From positions 1 to 64,000 of the forward strand of contig JACMPK010000229.1 in NCBI GenBank assembly GCA_014377535.1: DNA of 64,000 bases. Reading direction: 5' to 3'. Numbering within the stretch: the stretch's first letter is position 1; every line of letters begins with the position of its first letter. The translations under genes were made by a program, and so were the position numbers. Source of the DNA: Gemmatimonadaceae bacterium (GTDB taxonomy: Bacteria > Gemmatimonadota > Gemmatimonadetes > Gemmatimonadales > Gemmatimonadaceae). This document shows positions 54,858-64,000 of the stretch, one piece after another. The notes beneath the pieces were generated by a model. The model worked only from the letters and a program-made list of their open reading frames with translations, was not told the origin of the DNA and ran no database searches.

Positions 54858-55196
54858 TCACCCAAGGACGTTGAGTGCCGCACGAACCGCCATCAATGTC
54901 GCCGGCACACTCCGTTGCACCGCACCCCACACGATCCGGTCATCCAATGCATCGTATGCATGCGCGAGCCGATCCCGGAATCCGGCCAGGTCGCGCCACG
55001 GCACATTCGAAAACCGCTCGCGAAGATCGTCGGTCACGTGTTTCGCCGCTTCACCCATGATCTCGAGATTCCGCAGCGTGGCGTCATATCGCAATCCATC
55101 GGCAACGAACTCTTCGAACGTCAACGCGCCAGTGTAATCAAGCATCCGTTCGGCGCAGCTGACGATCCGCTCGAAGTCGACCCGAGGATCACGCAA
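54858..55196 (-). CDS. hepT: HEPN-domain toxin HepT (copy 1)
   Basis: YDATLRNLEIMGEAAKHVTDDLRERFSNVPWRDLAGFRDRLAHAYDALDDRIVWGAV; RxxxAH-type active site (RLAHAY). Confidence 0.9.
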   Translation of the reverse strand: MRDPRVDFERIVSCAERMLDYTGALTFEEFVADGLRYDATLRNLEIMGEAAKHVTDDLRERFSNVPWRDLAGFRDRLAHAYDALDDRIVWGAVQRSVPATLMAVRAALNVLG

Positions 55197-55476
55197 TGCG
55201 AACCGCGTCCGCTTCGACCTGCGCCCGCAGTCTCGGGGTGAGCTTCTTCAGCGAGACGACGTCGACGCGGCGTCCCAGCAGCGACTCGAGGTCGTCCGTG
55301 AAGTCGAGGAACGTGGGCAGGGTGATCCGGTCAGGGTCGAACTCCACGATCAGATCGACGTCGCTGGTCTCTGTCGCTTCACCACGCGCCATCGAGCCGA
55401 ACAGCAGCAGGTCTCGGACACCATACCATCGCCGCCAGTCGCCCCCGGTTCGAACGGAGAACGGCGAGAACCGCAT
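55189..55476 (-). CDS. mntA: MntA-type nucleotidyltransferase antitoxin (copy 1)
   Basis: YGVRDLLLFGSMARGEATETSDVDLIVEF MNT signature; overlaps hepT. Confidence 0.88.
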   Translation of the reverse strand: MRFSPFSVRTGGDWRRWYGVRDLLLFGSMARGEATETSDVDLIVEFDPDRITLPTFLDFTDDLESLLGRRVDVVSLKKLTPRLRAQVEADAVRIA

Positions 55477-55570
55477 CGCGGACCGGGACGGTCGCGGAGA
55501 GGACTGTGGCCGGCGGCATCATCCGAGAAATCTGGCGCCTGCGCCCCGCTGGTGACAGCAAACCAACCGG

Positions 55571-55608
55571 AAAAACGAAAACCCGGCCGCCAATTTCGCC
55601 AGCCGGGC
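55571..55608 (-). terminator. intrinsic terminator-like hairpin T1
   Basis: Minus strand CCCGGCtggcgaaattggcgGCCGGGTTTTCGTTTTT, directly 3' of repeat R1. Confidence 0.75.
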
Positions 55609-55617
55609 CCTCATCTA

Positions 55618-55686
55618 TTGCCCCTCCTGGGCTCGAACCAGGACTCTTCTGATCCAGAATGTGGCTGACCGGAAGAAGTGTGTGAC
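55618..55686 (-). repeat. R1: tRNA-Gln(CUG) 3'-half repeat (core 55618-55659)
   Basis: Minus strand TTCTGGA-TCAGA-AGAGT-CCTGGTTCGAGCCCAGG-AGGGGCA-A: anticodon loop, stem 3' strand, T-arm, acceptor 3' strand. Confidence 0.85.
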
Positions 55687-55814
55687 CAGCCATCCAACCT
55701 GCTTACGCACCGACGCATGCGAGCGACGAGCCATCCTGCGGCCGTGGTCGAGGCTTCGGTCGCAGCCTACCTCAGCGCTGTTACGTCGATTACGCCCGCA
55801 GACCACACGCGCAA

Positions 55815-55935
55815 CGTATAAACTGCCGATAGTATTATTTTATGCAGCTTATAGACTGCTTGTTTTATCATATGCAGTCTTCAACATGCTATTGATTGTC
55901 ATTTAGGCAGTGTTTACTATGCCTTTAGGTAGAAT
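55815..55935. promoter_or_regulatory. AT-rich promoter/operator region of the mobile-mystery operon
   Basis: AT-rich island with repeated CTGC/GCAG motifs (AAACTGCC...GGCAGTGTTT; TATGCAG..CTGC) upstream of 55992. Confidence 0.4.
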
Positions 55936-55991
55936 TCCCTGAGCTCGTCCACTCCGCCTACGCCGCGCTTTCCGCTCCACCAATCGCCGCC

Positions 55992-56513
55992 ATGCCCGTC
56001 CGCGCCGACACACAATGGCTCCGACTTCGTCAGGCCATCGCCCTGCTTGAGCCATGGCAGACACTGCGCTCGGCGCGCGCACCCAGCCAAGGCTGGGTGT
56101 CCACGATCCGTCGGGGGCTCGGCATGAGCAGCGCGCAACTCGCTGTGCGGATGCAATTCAGTCGGCAGTCGCTCGAGGCGCTCGAGGCACGCGAAGTCGC
56201 CGGCACAGCGACCATCGAGGCCCTCCGTCGCGCCGCTGACGCGCTCGATTGCGATCTTGTCTACGCCCTCGTTCCGCGGCAGGGGTCACTCGACGACGTC
56301 GTCACGGCACAAGCGCGCCGGGTCGCCACGCGGCTCGTCGGTCGCGCCGGACACACGATGGCGCTCGAGCAACAGACCGTCGCGGGGAGCGAGACGGAGC
56401 AGCAGATCGCAGTCCTCACCCGCCGCCTCCTGGCCGAATGGCCGCGGGGTCTCTGGGATGAGATCGCCCATCTGTCGCCCCGCGACGAACGCCCGGCTGG
56501 CGACGTGGCATGA
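55992..56513 (+). CDS. mobile mystery protein A (Xre-type HTH)
   Basis: GWVSTIRRGLGMSSAQLAVRMQFSRQSLEALEAREVAGTATIEALRRAADALDCDLVYALVPR. Confidence 0.88.
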   Translation: MPVRADTQWLRLRQAIALLEPWQTLRSARAPSQGWVSTIRRGLGMSSAQLAVRMQFSRQSLEALEAREVAGTATIEALRRAADALDCDLVYALVPRQGSLDDVVTAQARRVATRLVGRAGHTMALEQQTVAGSETEQQIAVLTRRLLAEWPRGLWDEIAHLSPRDERPAGDVA

Positions 56514-57154
56514 CGTCGCCAGCCGGGAATGGTGTCTCGCCGGTGCGGTGGGGCACTTTCGCTGTCGGCGTTCACGTCGCCGGTGCCACGCCGGTCGATC
56601 CCGACGAGGCGGCGGACCTCATCCCCAGCGGCGTCGAGACGGTCGACCAGCTCAATGCCTTCGAACAGACGAACATCCTGTCCGCGACGGAGTGGGCCCT
56701 TCGCCATCGGCGGCGTCACACACCGGCGACGGTGCTCAGCGAAGCGTTCCTGTTCGGCCTGCATCGTCGCATGTTCGACGAAACGTGGCGATGGGCGGGC
56801 GAACCTCGCCGCACCGACAAGAACATCGGCGTCCATTGGCCGACCATTCGCATCGCGCTGCGCGAGCGCGTGAAGGACGCGCAGTTGTGGCTGGCCGAAT
56901 CGGTCTTCACGACTGACGAGGTGGCACTGCGTCTGCACCACGGCGTCGTGCTGGTCCATCCCTTCTCGAACGGGAACGGTCGGTGGAGCCGCCTGGTGGC
57001 AGACACCCTGATGCATGCACACCAGCAGTCACCATTCGACTGGGGCGCGGCGCACCTGACGAGCACCGGGGAAGCTCGAACGGCGTACCTCACGGCTCTC
57101 CGGGCGGCAGATCGCGGAGACTTTGCCCCGCTAATGCGATTCGCACGCTCGTAA
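56510..57154 (+). CDS. mobile mystery protein B (Fic domain)
   Basis: ATGA overlap; LHHGVVLVHPFSNGNGRWSRLVADTLM Fic motif (HPFxNGNGR). Confidence 0.92.
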   Translation: MTSPAGNGVSPVRWGTFAVGVHVAGATPVDPDEAADLIPSGVETVDQLNAFEQTNILSATEWALRHRRRHTPATVLSEAFLFGLHRRMFDETWRWAGEPRRTDKNIGVHWPTIRIALRERVKDAQLWLAESVFTTDEVALRLHHGVVLVHPFSNGNGRWSRLVADTLMHAHQQSPFDWGAAHLTSTGEARTAYLTALRAADRGDFAPLMRFARS

Positions 57155-57311
57155 CTACTGTGAACCACGAGCGCTGTTGGATCTCCGATCCGCGGCCAGC
57201 CCCGCACGGCAGCAACGCTGACACAAACGCCGGGGTTGCCCGCTCGTGGTGCGGGGCTGAACGGTCGCATGCATCAATCTCGCGCGCGTTGCCGATTCTT
57301 AAGCGCACCAC

Positions 57312-57353
57312 AAGACCAAACGACCGCCGGCGCCTCTTCGGAACCGACGGTCG
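57312..57353 (-). terminator. terminator-like hairpin T2
   Basis: CGACCG...CGGTCG stem followed on the minus strand by TTTGGTCTT; 3' of R2. Confidence 0.6.
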
Positions 57354-57361
57354 CTCAGCTA

Positions 57362-57430
57362 TTGCCCCTCCTGGGCTCGAACCAGGACTCTTCTGATCCA
57401 GAATGTGGCTGACCAGAAGAAATGTGTGAC
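57362..57430 (-). repeat. R2: tRNA-Gln 3'-half repeat (core 57362-57403)
   Basis: Core identical to R1, extension TGTGGCTGACCAGAAGAAATGTGTGAC. Confidence 0.85.
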
Positions 57431-57655
57431 TGGGGCGTCGGCACGACGCTGGCATCGGACCGAGCGTGGCTCGGCAAGGAAGACCGCCGCAGGCGGACGC
57501 CGACACAGCGACTCATTTCAGCCCTGCGGGGCACTCAGCCCCTGCGGCGGAGAGGACCGACAAACGGGCGCCTTGCGAACGCGCCAGCGCATCAGCATCT
57601 CGCTGCACGTGTCGGGTAGCGCACGGCCAGACTGCGCGCTGGCAAAGACCGACAA

Positions 57656-58525
57656 TCAGACAACAGACGGCCGCGCATCCATTCCGGGGTCGGCCTGCAC
57701 GCGTGCGTACCAAGCGTCGTCGTCCAGCGCACCCCACTCGACCCAGGCCTCGTCGCTGAGCGACGCGCGCCACTGCAGGAAGGGCGCAGCGTCGGGCCCC
57801 ACCGGGTGCCTGAATTGCCAGCTGCCGCCGTCGGCAATCTCGACCAGCTTGTCGGCCACCACGTCAGGCGGTGTCGGCTGCTGCAGCGCGGCGACGAACA
57901 TCGCGGCCATGCGCCGCTGGTTGGGGTAGGCCGACGCATCGCCCGCCACGCTGATGTGGCGTGCCATGTCAGTATCGATAATGCCGGGCTCGACCACGCA
58001 GACGCGGATGCCGAAGGGCTTGACCTCCTGCGCCAGACACTCAGAGACGGCCTCGAGTGCAAACTTCGACGCCGCGTACGCACCCATCGGTGACGTCGCG
58101 AGCTTGCCGGAAATCGACGTCACGTTGACGATGCAGCCGCTGCGCCGCGCGCGCATGCCCGGCAGCACAGCCTGGATGCAGCGGATGGCGCCGAAGCAGT
58201 TGGTTTCCATCACGTCGCGGAAGGCCGAGACAGGCATCTCTTCTACCGACCCCGTGCGCTCGATGCCGGCATTATTAACCAGCACGTCGACCGGCCCCAA
58301 CTCGGCCTCGATGCGGCGCACCGCCTGCTGCACCGAGGCATCGTCATCGACGTCCATGGTGAAGACCGACACGGCCAGACGCTCGGAGGCCGCCGCGCGC
58401 GCGAGTTCGGGCGCTGCCGCCGGGTTGCGCATGGTGGCAGCCACCGTGTGGCCGGCACGCGCGAAGGCCAGTGCGGTGGCAAGGCCGATACCTCGGCTGG
58501 TGCCTGTGACGAGAACGGTGCTCAT
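57656..58525 (-). CDS. short-chain dehydrogenase/reductase
   Basis: VLVTGTSRGIGLATALAFA, NNAGIERTG, YAASKFALEA. Confidence 0.93.
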   Translation of the reverse strand: MSTVLVTGTSRGIGLATALAFARAGHTVAATMRNPAAAPELARAAASERLAVSVFTMDVDDDASVQQAVRRIEAELGPVDVLVNNAGIERTGSVEEMPVSAFRDVMETNCFGAIRCIQAVLPGMRARRSGCIVNVTSISGKLATSPMGAYAASKFALEAVSECLAQEVKPFGIRVCVVEPGIIDTDMARHISVAGDASAYPNQRRMAAMFVAALQQPTPPDVVADKLVEIADGGSWQFRHPVGPDAAPFLQWRASLSDEAWVEWGALDDDAWYARVQADPGMDARPSVV

Positions 58526-59006
58526 GGCGGACTCCTCGGCTGTGGAGGCTCGTGGGGGTTGAACGTCATAGACATGCAGAGTTTAGTCCGCGTGTGTGCG
58601 GCAGGCCATGCCGCCAGGCCGCGGCCACAGCATCCTGTTGGCGATGGACTCGACTCGCGGCGGCCACGACTCACTGCCGCGATTGGAAGCACTTGGCGCC
58701 AGTGGCGCATTTCGCCGTCGAGCCCATCGTCCTGGTGATGGGATCGGCGAGGGCATCACTGTACTCGCGGCGCACGACTTGGTGAAACCGAGCTTGGTTC
58801 AGCCTGGCTGTCGGCGTAATGTGGCAATGCGCGCTCTCACCGCGCGAAACGCTGCAGCCGCATCTGGCGGGTTGCCGATTCAGTGTCTCGACAACCCCAG
58901 CTCGTAATGGCTAGGCACTGTGAACAACCTGTCCGTCAACTACAGCGAGTTCAGCGGCGAAAGCGCCCCGAACGAAACCGAGGGTAACCCAAGCAACACC
59001 CAAGCG

Positions 59007-59034
59007 AAAAACGGCACCCCGCAAGGAGTGCCGT
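59007..59034 (-). terminator. intrinsic terminator-like hairpin T3
   Basis: Minus strand ACGGCACTCCTTGCGGGGTGCCGTTTTTCGC; 3' of R3. Confidence 0.75.
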
Positions 59035-59055
59035 AAATCGCTGTACCACTTTCTA

Positions 59056-59124
59056 TTGCCCCTCCTGGGCTCGAACCAGGACTCTTCTGATAAAGAATGT
59101 GGCTGAACAGAGCAGCCGTGTGAC
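59056..59124 (-). repeat. R3: tRNA-Gln 3'-half repeat (core 59056-59097)
   Basis: Same T-arm/acceptor; loop altered (TTCTTTA instead of TTCTGGA); extension partly conserved. Confidence 0.82.
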
Positions 59125-59201
59125 CAACGCCGCACGGTGGTTGCCGATGACGAGAAAGACGTGCACCAGATCGCTCGACGTCGGTCGCGACGCCAGCACG
59201 C

Positions 59202-59525
59202 TCAATCGAGTATCGTCACTCCGTGCTTTCGAATGACGGTCAGCATCTTCAGCGCGAGACCGCTCGGCCGCTTCGCACCGATCTCCCACTTTTCGACAGT
59301 GCTGGCACTGGTGTTGAGTCTACGCGCGAACAGGGCCTGACTCAGTCGCGCACTCTCACGAATCTTTTTGATCTGCGCCGGCGTCAGTGGTTCAGGATCG
59401 ACGAACGCGGCTTCATCGAAGTCTCGCATCGTCGCCTTGCTGATCGCCCCGACCCTGTGCACGGCCGCAGCGGCGGTATGGATCGCCTCGAACGCGTCGC
59501 TCGTGTATCTAGTTCTTGTCGCCAT
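59202..59525 (-). CDS. HigA-like Xre antitoxin (copy 1)
   Basis: PLTPAQIKKIRESARLSQALFARRLNTSASTVEKWEIGAKRPSGLALKML. Confidence 0.88.
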   Translation of the reverse strand: MATRTRYTSDAFEAIHTAAAAVHRVGAISKATMRDFDEAAFVDPEPLTPAQIKKIRESARLSQALFARRLNTSASTVEKWEIGAKRPSGLALKMLTVIRKHGVTILD

Positions 59526-59889
59526 GGCAAATCTCCACGAGATCCTTGTCATTGAGCAAAGCGCCGACGCGGACCGCTGTCAGCTGCTCATACGCCTTCG
59601 CGAGATCACGGAAACCCTTTAGCTCGGCATCGGTGATGTTGGCCCGGTCTTTCTTCGCGAACAGGTACGTGAGTACCCAATACCGCCGTCCCTTCGCCAA
59701 GATGATGCTGCGGTAGAGGTTCCCGCCGACACGTTTCTTGTACACGCCACTTCCGAGATCGTCGCACTTGCCGTCGCGTGCCTGCCGGACGGCCAGACAC
59801 AATTCGGCGCCACCAATCCCAGCCTTGCCGGCCGCCTTGGAGAACCACGCTGTCTTGAAGACCCGCTCATGTGGATGCGGATTGGGCAT
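59509..59889 (-). CDS. HigB/RelE-family toxin (copy 1; PF06296-like)
   Basis: VFKTAWFSKAAGKAGIGGAELCLAVRQARDGKCDDLGSGVYKKRVGGNLYRSIILAKGRRYWVLTYLFAKKDRANI; start chosen so the operator lies upstream. Confidence 0.88.
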   Translation of the reverse strand: MPNPHPHERVFKTAWFSKAAGKAGIGGAELCLAVRQARDGKCDDLGSGVYKKRVGGNLYRSIILAKGRRYWVLTYLFAKKDRANITDAELKGFRDLAKAYEQLTAVRVGALLNDKDLVEICHGDKN

Positions 59890-59898
59890 CTGTGGATA

Positions 59899-59917
59899 TG
59901 TAGCACTCAGTGCTACA
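59899..59917. promoter_or_regulatory. 19-bp operator palindrome TGTAGCACTCAGTGCTACA (copy 1)
   Basis: Palindrome with one central base just upstream of HigB copy 1; identical copy at 63942-63960. Confidence 0.8.
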
Positions 59918-59964
59918 CAAAACAAGACGCCGGTGAAGACTCTGCGGAACATGGCAATGCTCTA

Positions 59965-60005
59965 AAGACAAACGACCGTCAGCGCCCTCTCAGCGCCGAC
60001 GGTCG
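59965..60005 (-). terminator. terminator-like hairpin T4
   Basis: CGACCGTC...GACGGTCG stem, minus-strand TTTGTCTTT tail; 3' of R4. Confidence 0.65.
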
Positions 60006-60013
60006 CTTACCTG

Positions 60014-60081
60014 TTACCCTCCTGGGCTCGAACCAGGACTCTTCTGATCCAGAATGTGGCTGAACAGAAGAAACGTGTGAC
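60014..60081 (-). repeat. R4: tRNA-Gln 3'-half repeat (core 60014-60054)
   Basis: Core as R1 with slightly degraded acceptor (TTACCCTCCTGGG). Confidence 0.83.
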
Positions 60082-60115
60082 TGAGCCGCACGGCACGAGG
60101 CAGGTTCGTTCTGAC

Positions 60116-60898
60116 TTACGGCTGGAGTATCACGCCCGCCAGCACGCTTCCGGCATCGGTGACGGCGAACTCACTGACTGCAATGAGGACCACTGCCATG
60201 ACCGCGTAGCCTGCCGTGAGCGCGCGGTCGGTAGCACCACTCAAGACGGAGCGAACCAATACCAGCACGGCACCGAACGTCAGGATGGGACCGTAGATCC
60301 CTTGCGATCCTGCCTCGCCAAACACGGGAAACAACACCGGCATGCGAACGGTCGCACCGGCGAGGATACTCAAGCTTGCGAGCAACATCGCGGACTTGTG
60401 AAGCTTCGGTCGTTTCCGCAGGAGCACGCCGGCGAAGACGAAGAGCGAGAAGAGCGCCACTTCGGAGAGCATGACGAGCAGAAACTGTTGATACGTCATG
60501 CCCCAGAAGGGTGCGGTCGGCATTTCCCGAACCGATTCGACGGCGAGCATCATTCCGCTGGTGGCAGCCACAGCCGCGACCAGAATCCCATACCAGCCGA
60601 GTCGCATGTGCACACGCAGCCGTCGGGCGGGCACGAGCAGCGACTGCACGAGAAAGAGCAGCAACCACGCCGACAACGCCGTACCGTGGACGAATACGAG
60701 CGCCGCTAATTGCGGCGATATCGTCCGCCCTGCCATGCCCTTTCCCCGCAGATAGTACGGGTGAAAGCCCGCGACCATGAGCGCCAGCATGATGATCGCC
60801 GCGACAGCAAAGAAATAGCGCCCGCGCTGCGGTCGGCGCGTCCGAGCGCCCATCGCTGCGTGCGCGACGCCTTCGTGCTCGGTGGCCGTGGCACTCAT
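60116..60898 (-). CDS. multi-TM membrane protein of unknown function
   Basis: Seven or so hydrophobic segments (RYFFAVAAIIMLALMVAGFHPYYL...LGWYGILVAAVAATSGMMLAV...). Confidence 0.75.
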   Translation of the reverse strand: MSATATEHEGVAHAAMGARTRRPQRGRYFFAVAAIIMLALMVAGFHPYYLRGKGMAGRTISPQLAALVFVHGTALSAWLLLFLVQSLLVPARRLRVHMRLGWYGILVAAVAATSGMMLAVESVREMPTAPFWGMTYQQFLLVMLSEVALFSLFVFAGVLLRKRPKLHKSAMLLASLSILAGATVRMPVLFPVFGEAGSQGIYGPILTFGAVLVLVRSVLSGATDRALTAGYAVMAVVLIAVSEFAVTDAGSVLAGVILQP

Positions 60899-60965
60899 TT
60901 GTGGTCCGCTCCGATCATTGGGTCGATCATGGGTCAAAGTCCTTGAACGCTGGCTACGTGGAATG

Positions 60966-61331
60966 TCACCGACCGTGATCAACTCGCACGACATCGACGT
61001 CAGTCGGCAGGTCGAGCGCCGCACGAACCGCCATCACCGTCTCCGGCACGCTGCGTTGCACCGCATCCCACACAACCCGGTCGTCGAGCGCATCACAGGC
61101 ATGCGTGAGCCGATCCCGGAATCCGGCCAAGTCGCGCCACGGTACGTCCGCGAACCGCTCGCGGACTGCGTCGGTCACGCGTTTCGCGGCCTCAGCCATG
61201 ATCTCGAGATTCCGCAGCGTGGCGTCGTAACGCAGTCCGTCGGCAACGAACTCCTCGAACGTCAGCGCGTCGGTGTATTCGAGCACCCGCGGCGCAGAGG
61301 ACGATCCGCTCGAAGTCGATTCGTGGATCAC
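60966..61331 (-). CDS. hepT: HEPN-domain toxin HepT (copy 2)
   Basis: Paralogue of 54858-55196; RLTHACDALDDR in place of RLAHAYDALDDR. Confidence 0.87.
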   Translation of the reverse strand: MIHESTSSGSSSAPRVLEYTDALTFEEFVADGLRYDATLRNLEIMAEAAKRVTDAVRERFADVPWRDLAGFRDRLTHACDALDDRVVWDAVQRSVPETVMAVRAALDLPTDVDVVRVDHGR

Positions 61332-61567
61332 GCAACGCGAACCGCCTCGGCTTCGACCTGCGCGCGCAGTCTCGGGGTGAGCTTCTTCAGCGAGACGACG
61401 TCGACGCGGCGCCCCAGCAGTGCCTCGAGGTCGTCCGTGAAGTCAAGGAAGGTGGGTAGCGTGATCCGGTCCGGGTCGAGCTCCACGACCAGATCGACGT
61501 CACTGGCCGCTGTCGCTTCACCACGCGCCACCGAGCCGAACAGCAGCAGGTCGCGGACACCATACAT
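61328..61567 (-). CDS. mntA: MntA-type nucleotidyltransferase antitoxin (copy 2)
   Basis: MYGVRDLLLFGSVARGEATAASDVDLVVELDPDRITLP; paralogue of copy 1. Confidence 0.87.
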   Translation of the reverse strand: MYGVRDLLLFGSVARGEATAASDVDLVVELDPDRITLPTFLDFTDDLEALLGRRVDVVSLKKLTPRLRAQVEAEAVRVA

Positions 61568-61707
61568 CGCGACCAGTCGCCCCGGTTCGAACGGAGCACG
61601 GCAAGAACCGCATCGCGGACTGGGTCGGTCGCGGAGAGGACTGTGGCCGGCGGCTTCATCCGAGAAAACTGGCGCCTGCGCGCCGCTGGTGACAGCAGGC
61701 CACCCGG

Positions 61708-61744
61708 GAAAAGGAAAACCCGGCCGCCAATTTCGGCGGCCGGG
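61708..61744 (-). terminator. intrinsic terminator T5
   Basis: Perfect 10-bp stem CCCGGCCGCC-aatttc-GGCGGCCGGG with minus-strand TTTTCCTTTT tail; 3' of R5. Confidence 0.85.
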
Positions 61745-61754
61745 CCCTCTTCAA

Positions 61755-61830
61755 TTGCCCCTCCTGGGCTCGAACCAGGACTCTTCTGATCCAGAATGTG
61801 GCTGACCAGAAGAAATGTGTGACTGGGGCA
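61755..61830 (-). repeat. R5: tRNA-Gln 3'-half repeat (core 61755-61796)
   Basis: Core identical to R1/R2; extension near-identical to R2 (CCAGAAGAAATGTGTGACTGGGGC). Confidence 0.85.
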
Positions 61831-62073
61831 TTGCGCCTGTGCGGCAGCGCTCCGCACTCCACTATCTGTCGCCGGACGCCTTCGAGGCCGAGCACGCCCG
61901 CACCCATTCCGCCGCTTAAATCGCGACCCCTAATTGTCCGCCCAATATGGGTCACTCCAAGTCCAGGTATCGGCCATCAATGACAGTGTTGCTGATCGTC
62001 AGTACGTGCGAGCCGGTCGTTGCCAAGCCTCGAACCGAGCAGCAGTGTCTTCGATAAACGTAGGCCGGACGAA

Positions 62074-62772
62074 TTAGGCTGAGCGACGCCGGCGCGCGAT
62101 CACGGCCAGTAACATGAAACCCGTCGCCATGAGAACGTAGGTCTGCGGCTCCGGCACGATGCCAACACGAGCCGTGATCGTCTGTGGCCTCGTATCGAAC
62201 GCGATGTTCACGCCGCGGAACGTATTGTACACTACGGCACCATAGGTCAGTGGAGCAGGAGGTGGGTCCAGCTGCAACACTGTGTAATCCGATTGGTCAC
62301 AGCAATCGAACGGGAGTGAAGTCTCGGTCAGCCCTGTGTAGGAGAAGAGCATCCGCCCAGACGTGACACGCGGCGCGGACGACGACAGCAGCAGTTCAAA
62401 GGAGAACAACGGGCCAGCGGGCGCCGCAGATCTCGGCAGCGTGAACGGTGCCCCCGTAAACGTCTTCGTCAACGTGCCCATGACGTAATCGGTATCGCGC
62501 GCATTCGTCGCGACGATTGACTGAGTGGACGCAGTGAAGCTGATCGTCATCGAACTCGTGGCGCCGAACAAGGTCAACGAGTTACCGGTGACTGAGCACC
62601 CGTTCCCGGGAAGGAAAAATGCTGCGCCGACGCAGCGGAACATTGCACTCGTCGTGAGGTTGTGCGTGTAACCCCATTCCCCGTTCGGGAGTCGCCCCCA
62701 TCCTTGTGCTGCCGACGGAGACGCGAAGCCCATGAGCGCGGTCGTTAACAACGTGAGTGATCGGAGCGACAT
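62074..62772 (-). CDS. PEP-CTERM sorting-domain protein
   Basis: Signal peptide; C-terminus VPEPQTYVLMATGFMLLAVIARRRRSA. Confidence 0.88.
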   Translation of the reverse strand: MSLRSLTLLTTALMGFASPSAAQGWGRLPNGEWGYTHNLTTSAMFRCVGAAFFLPGNGCSVTGNSLTLFGATSSMTISFTASTQSIVATNARDTDYVMGTLTKTFTGAPFTLPRSAAPAGPLFSFELLLSSSAPRVTSGRMLFSYTGLTETSLPFDCCDQSDYTVLQLDPPPAPLTYGAVVYNTFRGVNIAFDTRPQTITARVGIVPEPQTYVLMATGFMLLAVIARRRRSA

Positions 62773-63104
62773 TTTTGGCCGATGCATAAGGAGGTGTTGT
62801 TTGTAGCAACGCGACAAGTAATAGTCGACGGGATAGAGAAGCAAGGGTCGGTGTACGTTTGCGGCACTGCCCGTGCATCGCGCTGGGCGGGCGGATTAAA
62901 GCGCGCGCTCGCAAACCTTTCCTGATCACGGCGTCTCGCGAGTCCCGCTCCGGTGCTCGACTGCCGTGCGCCTGGAGCAATCCGAGTCCAAGCCTCACGA
63001 TGTACTCGAGATCGGCGAAGTTGCTTGCCTCGCCGCGTGCAATCATTGCGCCCAACGGGCCTGTGATCACGATGGGCCGCGCCGAAACGAGTGACAAGCT
63101 ACTA

Positions 63105-63146
63105 GTGACCCTCCTGGGCTCGAACCAGGACTCTTCTGATCCAGAA
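63105..63146 (-). repeat. R6: tRNA-Gln 3'-half repeat (core only)
   Basis: Same T-arm, anticodon-stem 3' strand and loop; extension diverges after GTGGCTGA; no adjacent terminator seen. Confidence 0.8.
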
Positions 63147-63245
63147 TGTGGCTGAGGGGTGGTCAGGTATGACCGTCTAGCAACCCTAGGGGCGATGGTT
63201 TCGGCGCCACGTCGTCCGAAGCAACGAGGCTGCGCTCCGATCAGT

Positions 63246-63569
63246 TCAATCGAGGACCGACAGCCCATGCTTCTTCACCACCGCCAGCATTTTGAGCGCC
63301 AGCCCACTTGGCCGCTTGGCGCCGATTTCCCACTTCTCCACCGTGCTTGAGCTGGTGTTGAGCCGGCGCGCAAAGGCCGCCTGACTGAGTCGCGTCTTTT
63401 CGCGAATCTTCTTGATCTGCGATGGCGTCAGCGGCTCTGGCTCAACAAGGGCGGCGGCATCAAAGTGGCGCATCGTTTGCTTGCTGATTGCGCCGACCTG
63501 GTGCACCGCGGCCGCCGCGGTATGGATCGCCTCAAACGCCTCGCTCTTGTACTTCGCCTTAGTCGCCAT
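63246..63569 (-). CDS. HigA-like Xre antitoxin (copy 2)
   Basis: PLTPSQIKKIREKTRLSQAAFARRLNTSSSTVEKWEIGAKRPSGLALKML; paralogue of copy 1. Confidence 0.88.
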   Translation of the reverse strand: MATKAKYKSEAFEAIHTAAAAVHQVGAISKQTMRHFDAAALVEPEPLTPSQIKKIREKTRLSQAAFARRLNTSSSTVEKWEIGAKRPSGLALKMLAVVKKHGLSVLD

Positions 63570-63933
63570 GACAGATCTCCACGAATGCCTTGTCTTCGAG
63601 CAGGTCGGCGAGGTTGTCCGCCGTGAGCCGCTGATAAGATTTCGCGAGGTCACGAAATCCCTGTAATTCCGCCGCATCGATATTGGCGCGGTCCTTCTTT
63701 GCGAATAGATACGTAAGGATCCAGTATCGACCGCCCTTCGACAGAATTATGCTGCGATAGAGGTTCCGACTCACGCGCTTCTTGTACACACCATTCCCGA
63801 GATCATCACACTGGCCGGCTCGTGCCTGAGCAACCGCCGCACACAGCTCGTCGTCACCGATCTGCGCCTTCCGGGCCGCATTCGCGAACCATGCCGTTTT
63901 GAAGACCCGCTCCCGGCGCGGTGAACTTGCCAT
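63559..63933 (-). CDS. HigB/RelE-family toxin (copy 2)
   Basis: VFKTAWFANAARKAQIGDDELCAAVAQARAGQCDDLGNGVYKKRVSRNLYRSIILSKGGRYWILTYLFAKKDRANI. Confidence 0.88.
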   Translation of the reverse strand: MASSPRRERVFKTAWFANAARKAQIGDDELCAAVAQARAGQCDDLGNGVYKKRVSRNLYRSIILSKGGRYWILTYLFAKKDRANIDAAELQGFRDLAKSYQRLTADNLADLLEDKAFVEICHGD

Positions 63934-63941
63934 GCGAAAAG

Positions 63942-63960
63942 TGTAGCACTCAGTGCTACA
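63942..63960. promoter_or_regulatory. 19-bp operator palindrome TGTAGCACTCAGTGCTACA (copy 2)
   Basis: Identical to 59899-59917, ~9 bp upstream of the HigB copy 2 start. Confidence 0.8.
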
Positions 63961-64000
63961 GCCGACAAGGCGTAGAGCGCCAGACTGCAGCGGCCCGAAC

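Follow-up and report, generated by a model that had tools for sequence, protein, structure and literature searches.

We describe here an array of small gene cassettes at the right end of a 64,000-nt window (the whole stretch of DNA that was analysed, positions 1-64000 of the 91,691-bp contig C150) from a Gemmatimonadaceae genome, G000. The array is very probably a tandem accretion of mini-integrative elements without integrase genes ('tRNA cassettes') on the 3' side of a single tRNA-Gln(CUG) gene. This reading builds on the layout of the array, the ends of its units, the place of crossover, an island with the same ends and the reordering of units in relatives, all of which are apparent from sequence comparison; we infer that the units are mobilised in trans by a tyrosine integrase. 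The general kind of system is already known from additive tRNA islands and cis-mobilizable elements (CIMEs), and it is the compact, shuffled form of the Gemmatimonadaceae, with defined ends and integrases, that appears to be undescribed. The basis is a metagenome-assembled genome (3.79 Mb in 254 contigs, 90.6% complete), which was compared with a set of one genome per species.

An initial annotation of the window had reported six co-oriented tRNA-Gln(CUG) 3'-half repeats without the 5' half. All six are present (R1 to R6, Table 1), with the tRNA sense on the minus strand and spacings of 1744, 1694, 957, 1742 and 1350 bp; the 5' half is missing in each of them, and ARAGORN finds zero tRNAs in the window. 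A 44-nt pattern with up to 2 mismatches matches exactly these six places in the window, whereas 0 matches are expected from 100 dinucleotide shuffles; the six-repeat array is confirmed as real and far beyond chance. The repeats are longer than had been annotated. In each, the tRNA 3' half, which starts at about tRNA position 32, is joined to the end of the adjoining unit, a conserved stretch outside the tRNA that reads GTGGCTGA..GT.TGAC on the plus strand; 53 of 68 columns are invariant across the six copies. In tRNA sense the repeat reads [GTCA..(about 15)..TCAGCCACA] and then TTCTGGATCAGAAGAGTCCTGGTTCGAGCCCAGGAGGGGCA, the 3' half of the tRNA-Gln, starting in the anticodon loop. The copies do not all read alike: R3 (59057) has a mutated anticodon loop, and the acceptor strand is mutated in R4 and R6. 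The only match in an Rfam scan of the array, to isrK, was sub-threshold and taken as chance.

An intact tRNA-Gln(CTG) gene was predicted to lie to the right of the window, and the only intact copy indeed starts 96 bp past it, at contig positions 64096-64168 on the minus strand. This gene closes one end of the array. Displaced 3' halves occur only on its 3' side and in the same orientation, and no further 3' halves were found elsewhere in the G000 assembly when up to 3 mismatches were allowed. In the intact gene, ...TGTCTGA stands before the 3' half, and in the copies ...TCAGCCACA takes that place; the break therefore falls at the anticodon loop, which agrees with the crossover place proposed from the window alone. 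The right flank of the array is syntenic in G001, G100, G030 and G054.

From the tRNA outward, a unit opens with a tRNA 3' half, to which a terminator-like hairpin is usually added; 1-3 genes come next, and a conserved end of about 30 nt, GTCA..TCAGCCACA, closes the unit. Cassettes in G000 measure 957-1744 bp, and their gene content is as annotated: HepT/MntA twice, a toxin with a helix-turn-helix (HTH) antitoxin twice (RelE-type), mobile mystery proteins A and B (TIGR02612 and TIGR02613), a short-chain dehydrogenase (SDR), an otherwise unassigned putative membrane protein and a PEP-CTERM protein. The absence of integrases from the units was likewise borne out, as profile searches detected neither an integrase nor a recognisable remnant in any G000 unit; a match at E=0.013, the only sign of a hidden integrase in one of them, was treated as chance. 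The units do not fit the definition of an integrative mobilizable or conjugative element, which has its own integrase, relaxase or conjugation genes: they have no integrase, and each carries 1-3 cargo genes. They keep both attachment ends though they lack an integrase.

Matching ends occur in G001, a genome of the same genus with a syntenic right flank (tRNA-Gln, a lipoprotein-like gene and tRNA-Ala; ~75% identity). G001 carries a 70.8-kb island in the same tRNA-Gln gene, which ends, as in G000, at a 3' half joined to a TCAGCCACATTCTGG end. Right behind the tRNA lies a tyrosine recombinase gene that scores above the PF00589 cut-off, with R and HxxR aligned with those of XerD and a tyrosine nearby. 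This integrase-bearing island shares its ends with G000, and the G000 units thus have its attachment ends. Past the only displaced 3' half of G001, ~215 bp are homologous to the start of the G000 MntA/HepT unit U0; the arrays of the two genomes differ. In G100, which belongs to another genus, one unit carries the G000 end too, and the conserved non-tRNA end, which we call type A, is common to 8 junctions in three genomes. Outside the family, a search for the type A junction CTGATNCARAATGTGGCTGA gave 14 GTDB contigs, of which just the Gemmatimonadaceae one is taken as real and the remaining ones are taken as chance by their taxonomy; it gave 0 matches in viral contigs. Gemmatimonadaceae bacterium ES-bin-29 is a named relative with the same junction. 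A TCTTCTG/CAGAAGA stem was rejected as a general feature of the ends: it is present in some of them and conserved neither in R6 nor in G001.

These junctions also bear on whether the array could have arisen by segmental duplication of a tRNA fragment and its neighbourhood through homologous recombination, with no site-specific recombinase. MntA/HepT occurs twice in the array, in blocks that are 85-93% identical, and so does the RelE/HTH pair (C6 vs C3, 74% identity), as such duplication would produce. We nevertheless regard it as highly improbable, because all breakpoints share one position in the anticodon loop, with the conserved end attached at all 8 junctions, the cargo of most units is unrelated, and an integrase-bearing island shares the ends.

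Arrays of this type are not restricted to G000. By the 3'-half pattern, two or more tRNA-Gln 3' halves occur in about 25 of 180 Gemmatimonadaceae genomes, a hand count from a table that is a lower bound because G108 is listed once yet has three copies. Across the family, unit sizes extend from 0.7 kb up to islands of 11-70 kb. Cutting the sequences at successive 3' halves gave 29 units, of which 25 are of 0.9-5.5 kb (including the six from G000), and integrases were found by profile only in large units of G042, G032 and G017, with decayed integrase C-termini in small units of G223, G079 and G060. Family cargo also includes DUF2442, SLFN/AlbA_2, a multicopper oxidase with cytochrome c, a glycosyltransferase and a sulfatase. 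In genus g22, where unit ends are of a second type (type B), two units are in swapped order, with breakpoints at the repeats: tRNA-beta-alpha-flank in G068 vs tRNA-alpha-beta-flank in G108. Homology extends through the whole of unit alpha (1-1569 of 1571 vs 1-1520 of 1522, 80.7%), and in beta it starts with the first base and runs for about 620 bp (83.6%) before the sequences diverge; the flank past the last repeat is homologous in both genomes. The same units occur in other arrangements in G223, G048 and G226. An empty-site comparison with G023 found no conserved 3' flank. Relatives hence have the same repeats, with unit boundaries in the repeats and an order that differs between species (of another genus), as the initial annotation had anticipated. 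It had named in advance, as speaking against such an array, a genome devoid of a tRNA-Gln with this 3' half, relatives devoid of the repeats, and junctions in relatives outside the repeat; none of these was encountered.

The same comparisons allow a different history to be weighed, in which at least six successive full-size islands inserted at the tRNA-Gln and each decayed by internal deletion to its end-proximal 1-2 kb, so that the units are scars and the array a frozen remnant. The decayed integrase C-termini of the small units in G223, G079 and G060 do lie beside the 3' half, G001 has a full-size island with matching ends, G000 has no such integrase, and R3, R4 and R6 are mutated. The G000 units, however, contain no integrase remnant and have complete gene pairs fitted between their ends. 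Decay alone would also not account for a unit that is kept at full length between species yet stands in a different order, and the RelE/HTH pair is found as a compact unit at two different tRNA genes. On balance we consider this history possible, though rather unlikely.

The second of these tRNA genes is tRNA-Pro(CGG). The RelE/HTH pair of cassettes C3 and C6 has 73-74% homologues in G108, G217, G222 and G068. It lies between two tRNA-Pro(CGG) 3' halves 1021 bp apart in G108 and directly after the intact tRNA-Pro in G068, and its orientation relative to the tRNA is opposite in G108 vs G000. Closely spaced series of tRNA-Pro(CGG) 3' halves occur in G108, G095, G075 and G031, so tRNA-Gln is not the only site of this phenomenon, and tRNA-Pro(CGG) is suggested as a second cassette hotspot. 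It is tempting to go further and propose a gene-capture system of the Gemmatimonadaceae that is functionally equivalent to an integron, in which the anticodon loops of tRNA-Gln and tRNA-Pro would serve as attI, and minimal one-operon cassettes with standard ends would routinely be excised, shuffled and exchanged across genera by integrases supplied in trans from visiting islands. We hold this broader proposal to be unlikely in its full extent.

Candidate integrases occur in other members of the family. In G223, which like G231 belongs to the genus with type B ends, the intact tRNA-Gln is directly followed by an integrase gene (L125:5082-6575), and the 3' half and terminator head of this element resemble those of array units. 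An 81% homologue in G231 adjoins a 3' half, with the neighbouring 3' half 36 kb away. The initial annotation had suggested that an integrase may lie beside the tRNA-Gln to the right of the window, which does not hold for G000: no integrase is found there, and contig C150 has no PF00589 match. Of the three G000 genes that match PF00589, one is read as XerD-like, one as XerC-like (by eye) and one as a partial integron integrase; nothing ties them to the array.

The integron integrase gene, cut by the contig end, is situated 0.2 kb from a tRNA-Gly(TCC) on another contig (G000:C224, L033:1138-1890) and is 64% identical to that of G001:C9, which scores 387 bits against TIGR02249, above cut-off. The G000 genome may thus hold a genuine integron elsewhere. 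Together with the array layout and toxin-antitoxin cargo, which resemble sedentary integrons, the presence of such enzymes in the genus could be taken to mean that the array itself is an integron or a cluster of attC sites lacking integron integrases (CALIN), with the repeats as attC sites and the cassettes moved by the integron integrase. This is hardly credible. Neither GTTRRRY nor RYYYAAC occurs on either strand of the six repeats, these are tRNA 3' halves and an intact tRNA closes the series, the integron integrase lies on a different contig and not next to the array, and the tyrosine integrase that adjoins the tRNA in the same-ended G001 island is a different one.

Mobilisation of the tRNA cassettes in trans could proceed as follows. 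A circular unit would insert at the anticodon loop of the intact tRNA-Gln. As units begin with a 3' half of their own, mostly followed by a terminator, insertion would restore the tRNA and mostly its terminator, and the tRNA-Gln would stay functional after every insertion. The old 3' half would be pushed outward and would now be joined to the end of the new unit. The tyrosine integrase of a co-resident or visiting island might then excise a unit as a circle between adjacent repeats and re-insert it at the intact tRNA. Because the cargo consists largely of toxin-antitoxin pairs, loss would be penalised and retention favoured. Several observations weigh against this model. No homologue of the tRNA-Gln-island integrases was found in the 90.6%-complete G000 assembly, and G048 (99% complete, a single contig) has an array and no homologue of the G223 integrase, so a resident enzyme lacks support for those arrays. 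The repeats of G000 show no clear age gradient of decay from the tRNA to the distal end, and the swap was seen in another genus with type B ends, not the end type of the window. The integrase of G000 may have been lost, may never have been resident, or may be missing from the assembly; trans mobilisation is thus putative there, and the G000 array may be a stranded relic comparable to a CALIN.

Table 1. Repeats and units of the tRNA-Gln array (window positions; gene strands in brackets)
Feature	Position	Strand	Content
U0, distal unit	54858..55618	-	MntA (55189-55476), HepT (54858-55196)
R1	55619..55686	-	tRNA-Gln 3' half (55619-55660) and conserved end of cassette C1
C1, 1744 bp	55660..57403		mobile mystery protein A (55992-56513 +), mobile mystery protein B, Fic family (56510-57154 +)
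R2	57363..57430	-	tRNA-Gln 3' half and conserved end of cassette C2
C2, 1694 bp	57404..59097		SDR (57656-58525 -)
R3	59057..59124	-	3' half with mutated anticodon loop and conserved end of cassette C3
C3, 957 bp	59098..60054		RelE-family toxin (59509-59952 -), HTH antitoxin (59202-59552 -)
R4	60014..60081	-	3' half with changed acceptor strand and conserved end of cassette C4
C4, 1742 bp	60055..61796		MntA (61328-61567 -), HepT (60966-61331 -), putative membrane protein (60116-60940 -)
R5	61756..61823	-	tRNA-Gln 3' half and conserved end of cassette C5
C5, 1350 bp	61797..63146		PEP-CTERM protein (62074-62844 -)
R6	63106..63173	-	3' half with changed acceptor strand and conserved end of C6; end variant resembles that of the G001 island
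C6, 991 bp	63147..64000, on to contig 64138		RelE-family toxin (63559-63933 -), HTH antitoxin (63246-63569 -)

Other repeated sequences were noted in and around the cassettes. C2 contains a dispersed repeat of ~90 bp (window 58860-58950) with 75-84% identity to copies in G001, G002, G100, G034, G069, G080 and G109. A stretch of ~120 bp beside R5 (window 61841-61960) has counterparts in G223 and G097, and read on the plus strand it may resemble the C-terminus of an IS3-type transposase. The mobile mystery A/B homologue of G231 (L168, G231:C218:1-5896) is flanked by blocks of ~200 bp made up of 14-bp tandem repeats, at a spacing of about 1-1.6 kb, which are possibly another kind of repeat-bounded array.

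How 'additive' cassettes move is a long-standing question. In the Gemmatimonadaceae the unit ends and the point of crossover are defined, as are candidate integrases and one cassette swap, which makes trans-mobilisation directly testable. If true, tRNA genes would act as integron-like platforms, possibly behind much of the gene turnover in a widespread phylum. In the literature searched, nothing is reported on tRNA cassette arrays of Gemmatimonadota. Additive flexible genomic islands with a tRNA as cassette target have been described in Alteromonas (PMC4119200), Ca. Actinomarinales, where cassettes are common to different genera (PMC7771536), and Methylophilaceae (flexible genomic island fGI-2), with cassettes down to 330 bp (PMC10872708). 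The Gemmatimonadaceae form shares with them the conserved tRNA target, the cassettes stacked behind it and the partial tRNA repeats that mark cassette ends. It differs in its anticodon-loop crossover (a 3' half of about 44 nt), in having a non-tRNA cassette end and matching integrases identified, and in two cassettes being in swapped order. At the ssrA gene of Dehalococcoides, 15 islands without an integration module were read as possible CIMEs (PMC3146451), which resemble the present units as tandem islands behind one RNA gene with displaced 3' repeats. These involve serine recombinases, tmRNA and rdhA-rich islands, in contrast to the tyrosine integrases, tRNA-Gln and 1-2 kb units of the Gemmatimonadaceae. 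The tRNA islands catalogued by Islander include the anticodon-centred crossover class, displaced 3' fragments and tandem arrays, with only 4 tandems of three or more listed (PMC4383910). Islander rejects candidates that lack an integrase or are <2 kb (PMC4383910), so arrays such as that of G000 are invisible to it. Small cassettes, toxin-antitoxin cargo, one conserved insertion point, integrase-free cassettes and reordering are also features of integron arrays and of CALINs, which among integrons are the counterpart of such integrase-less tRNA units (PMC11389934). The term 'integron-like' in the initial annotation is apt as an analogy only, as the attC core motif is absent, the att site is of tRNA type, a tRNA gene takes the place of attI, and the related integrases are of island type. 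By this analogy, the array would work like an integron while not being one.

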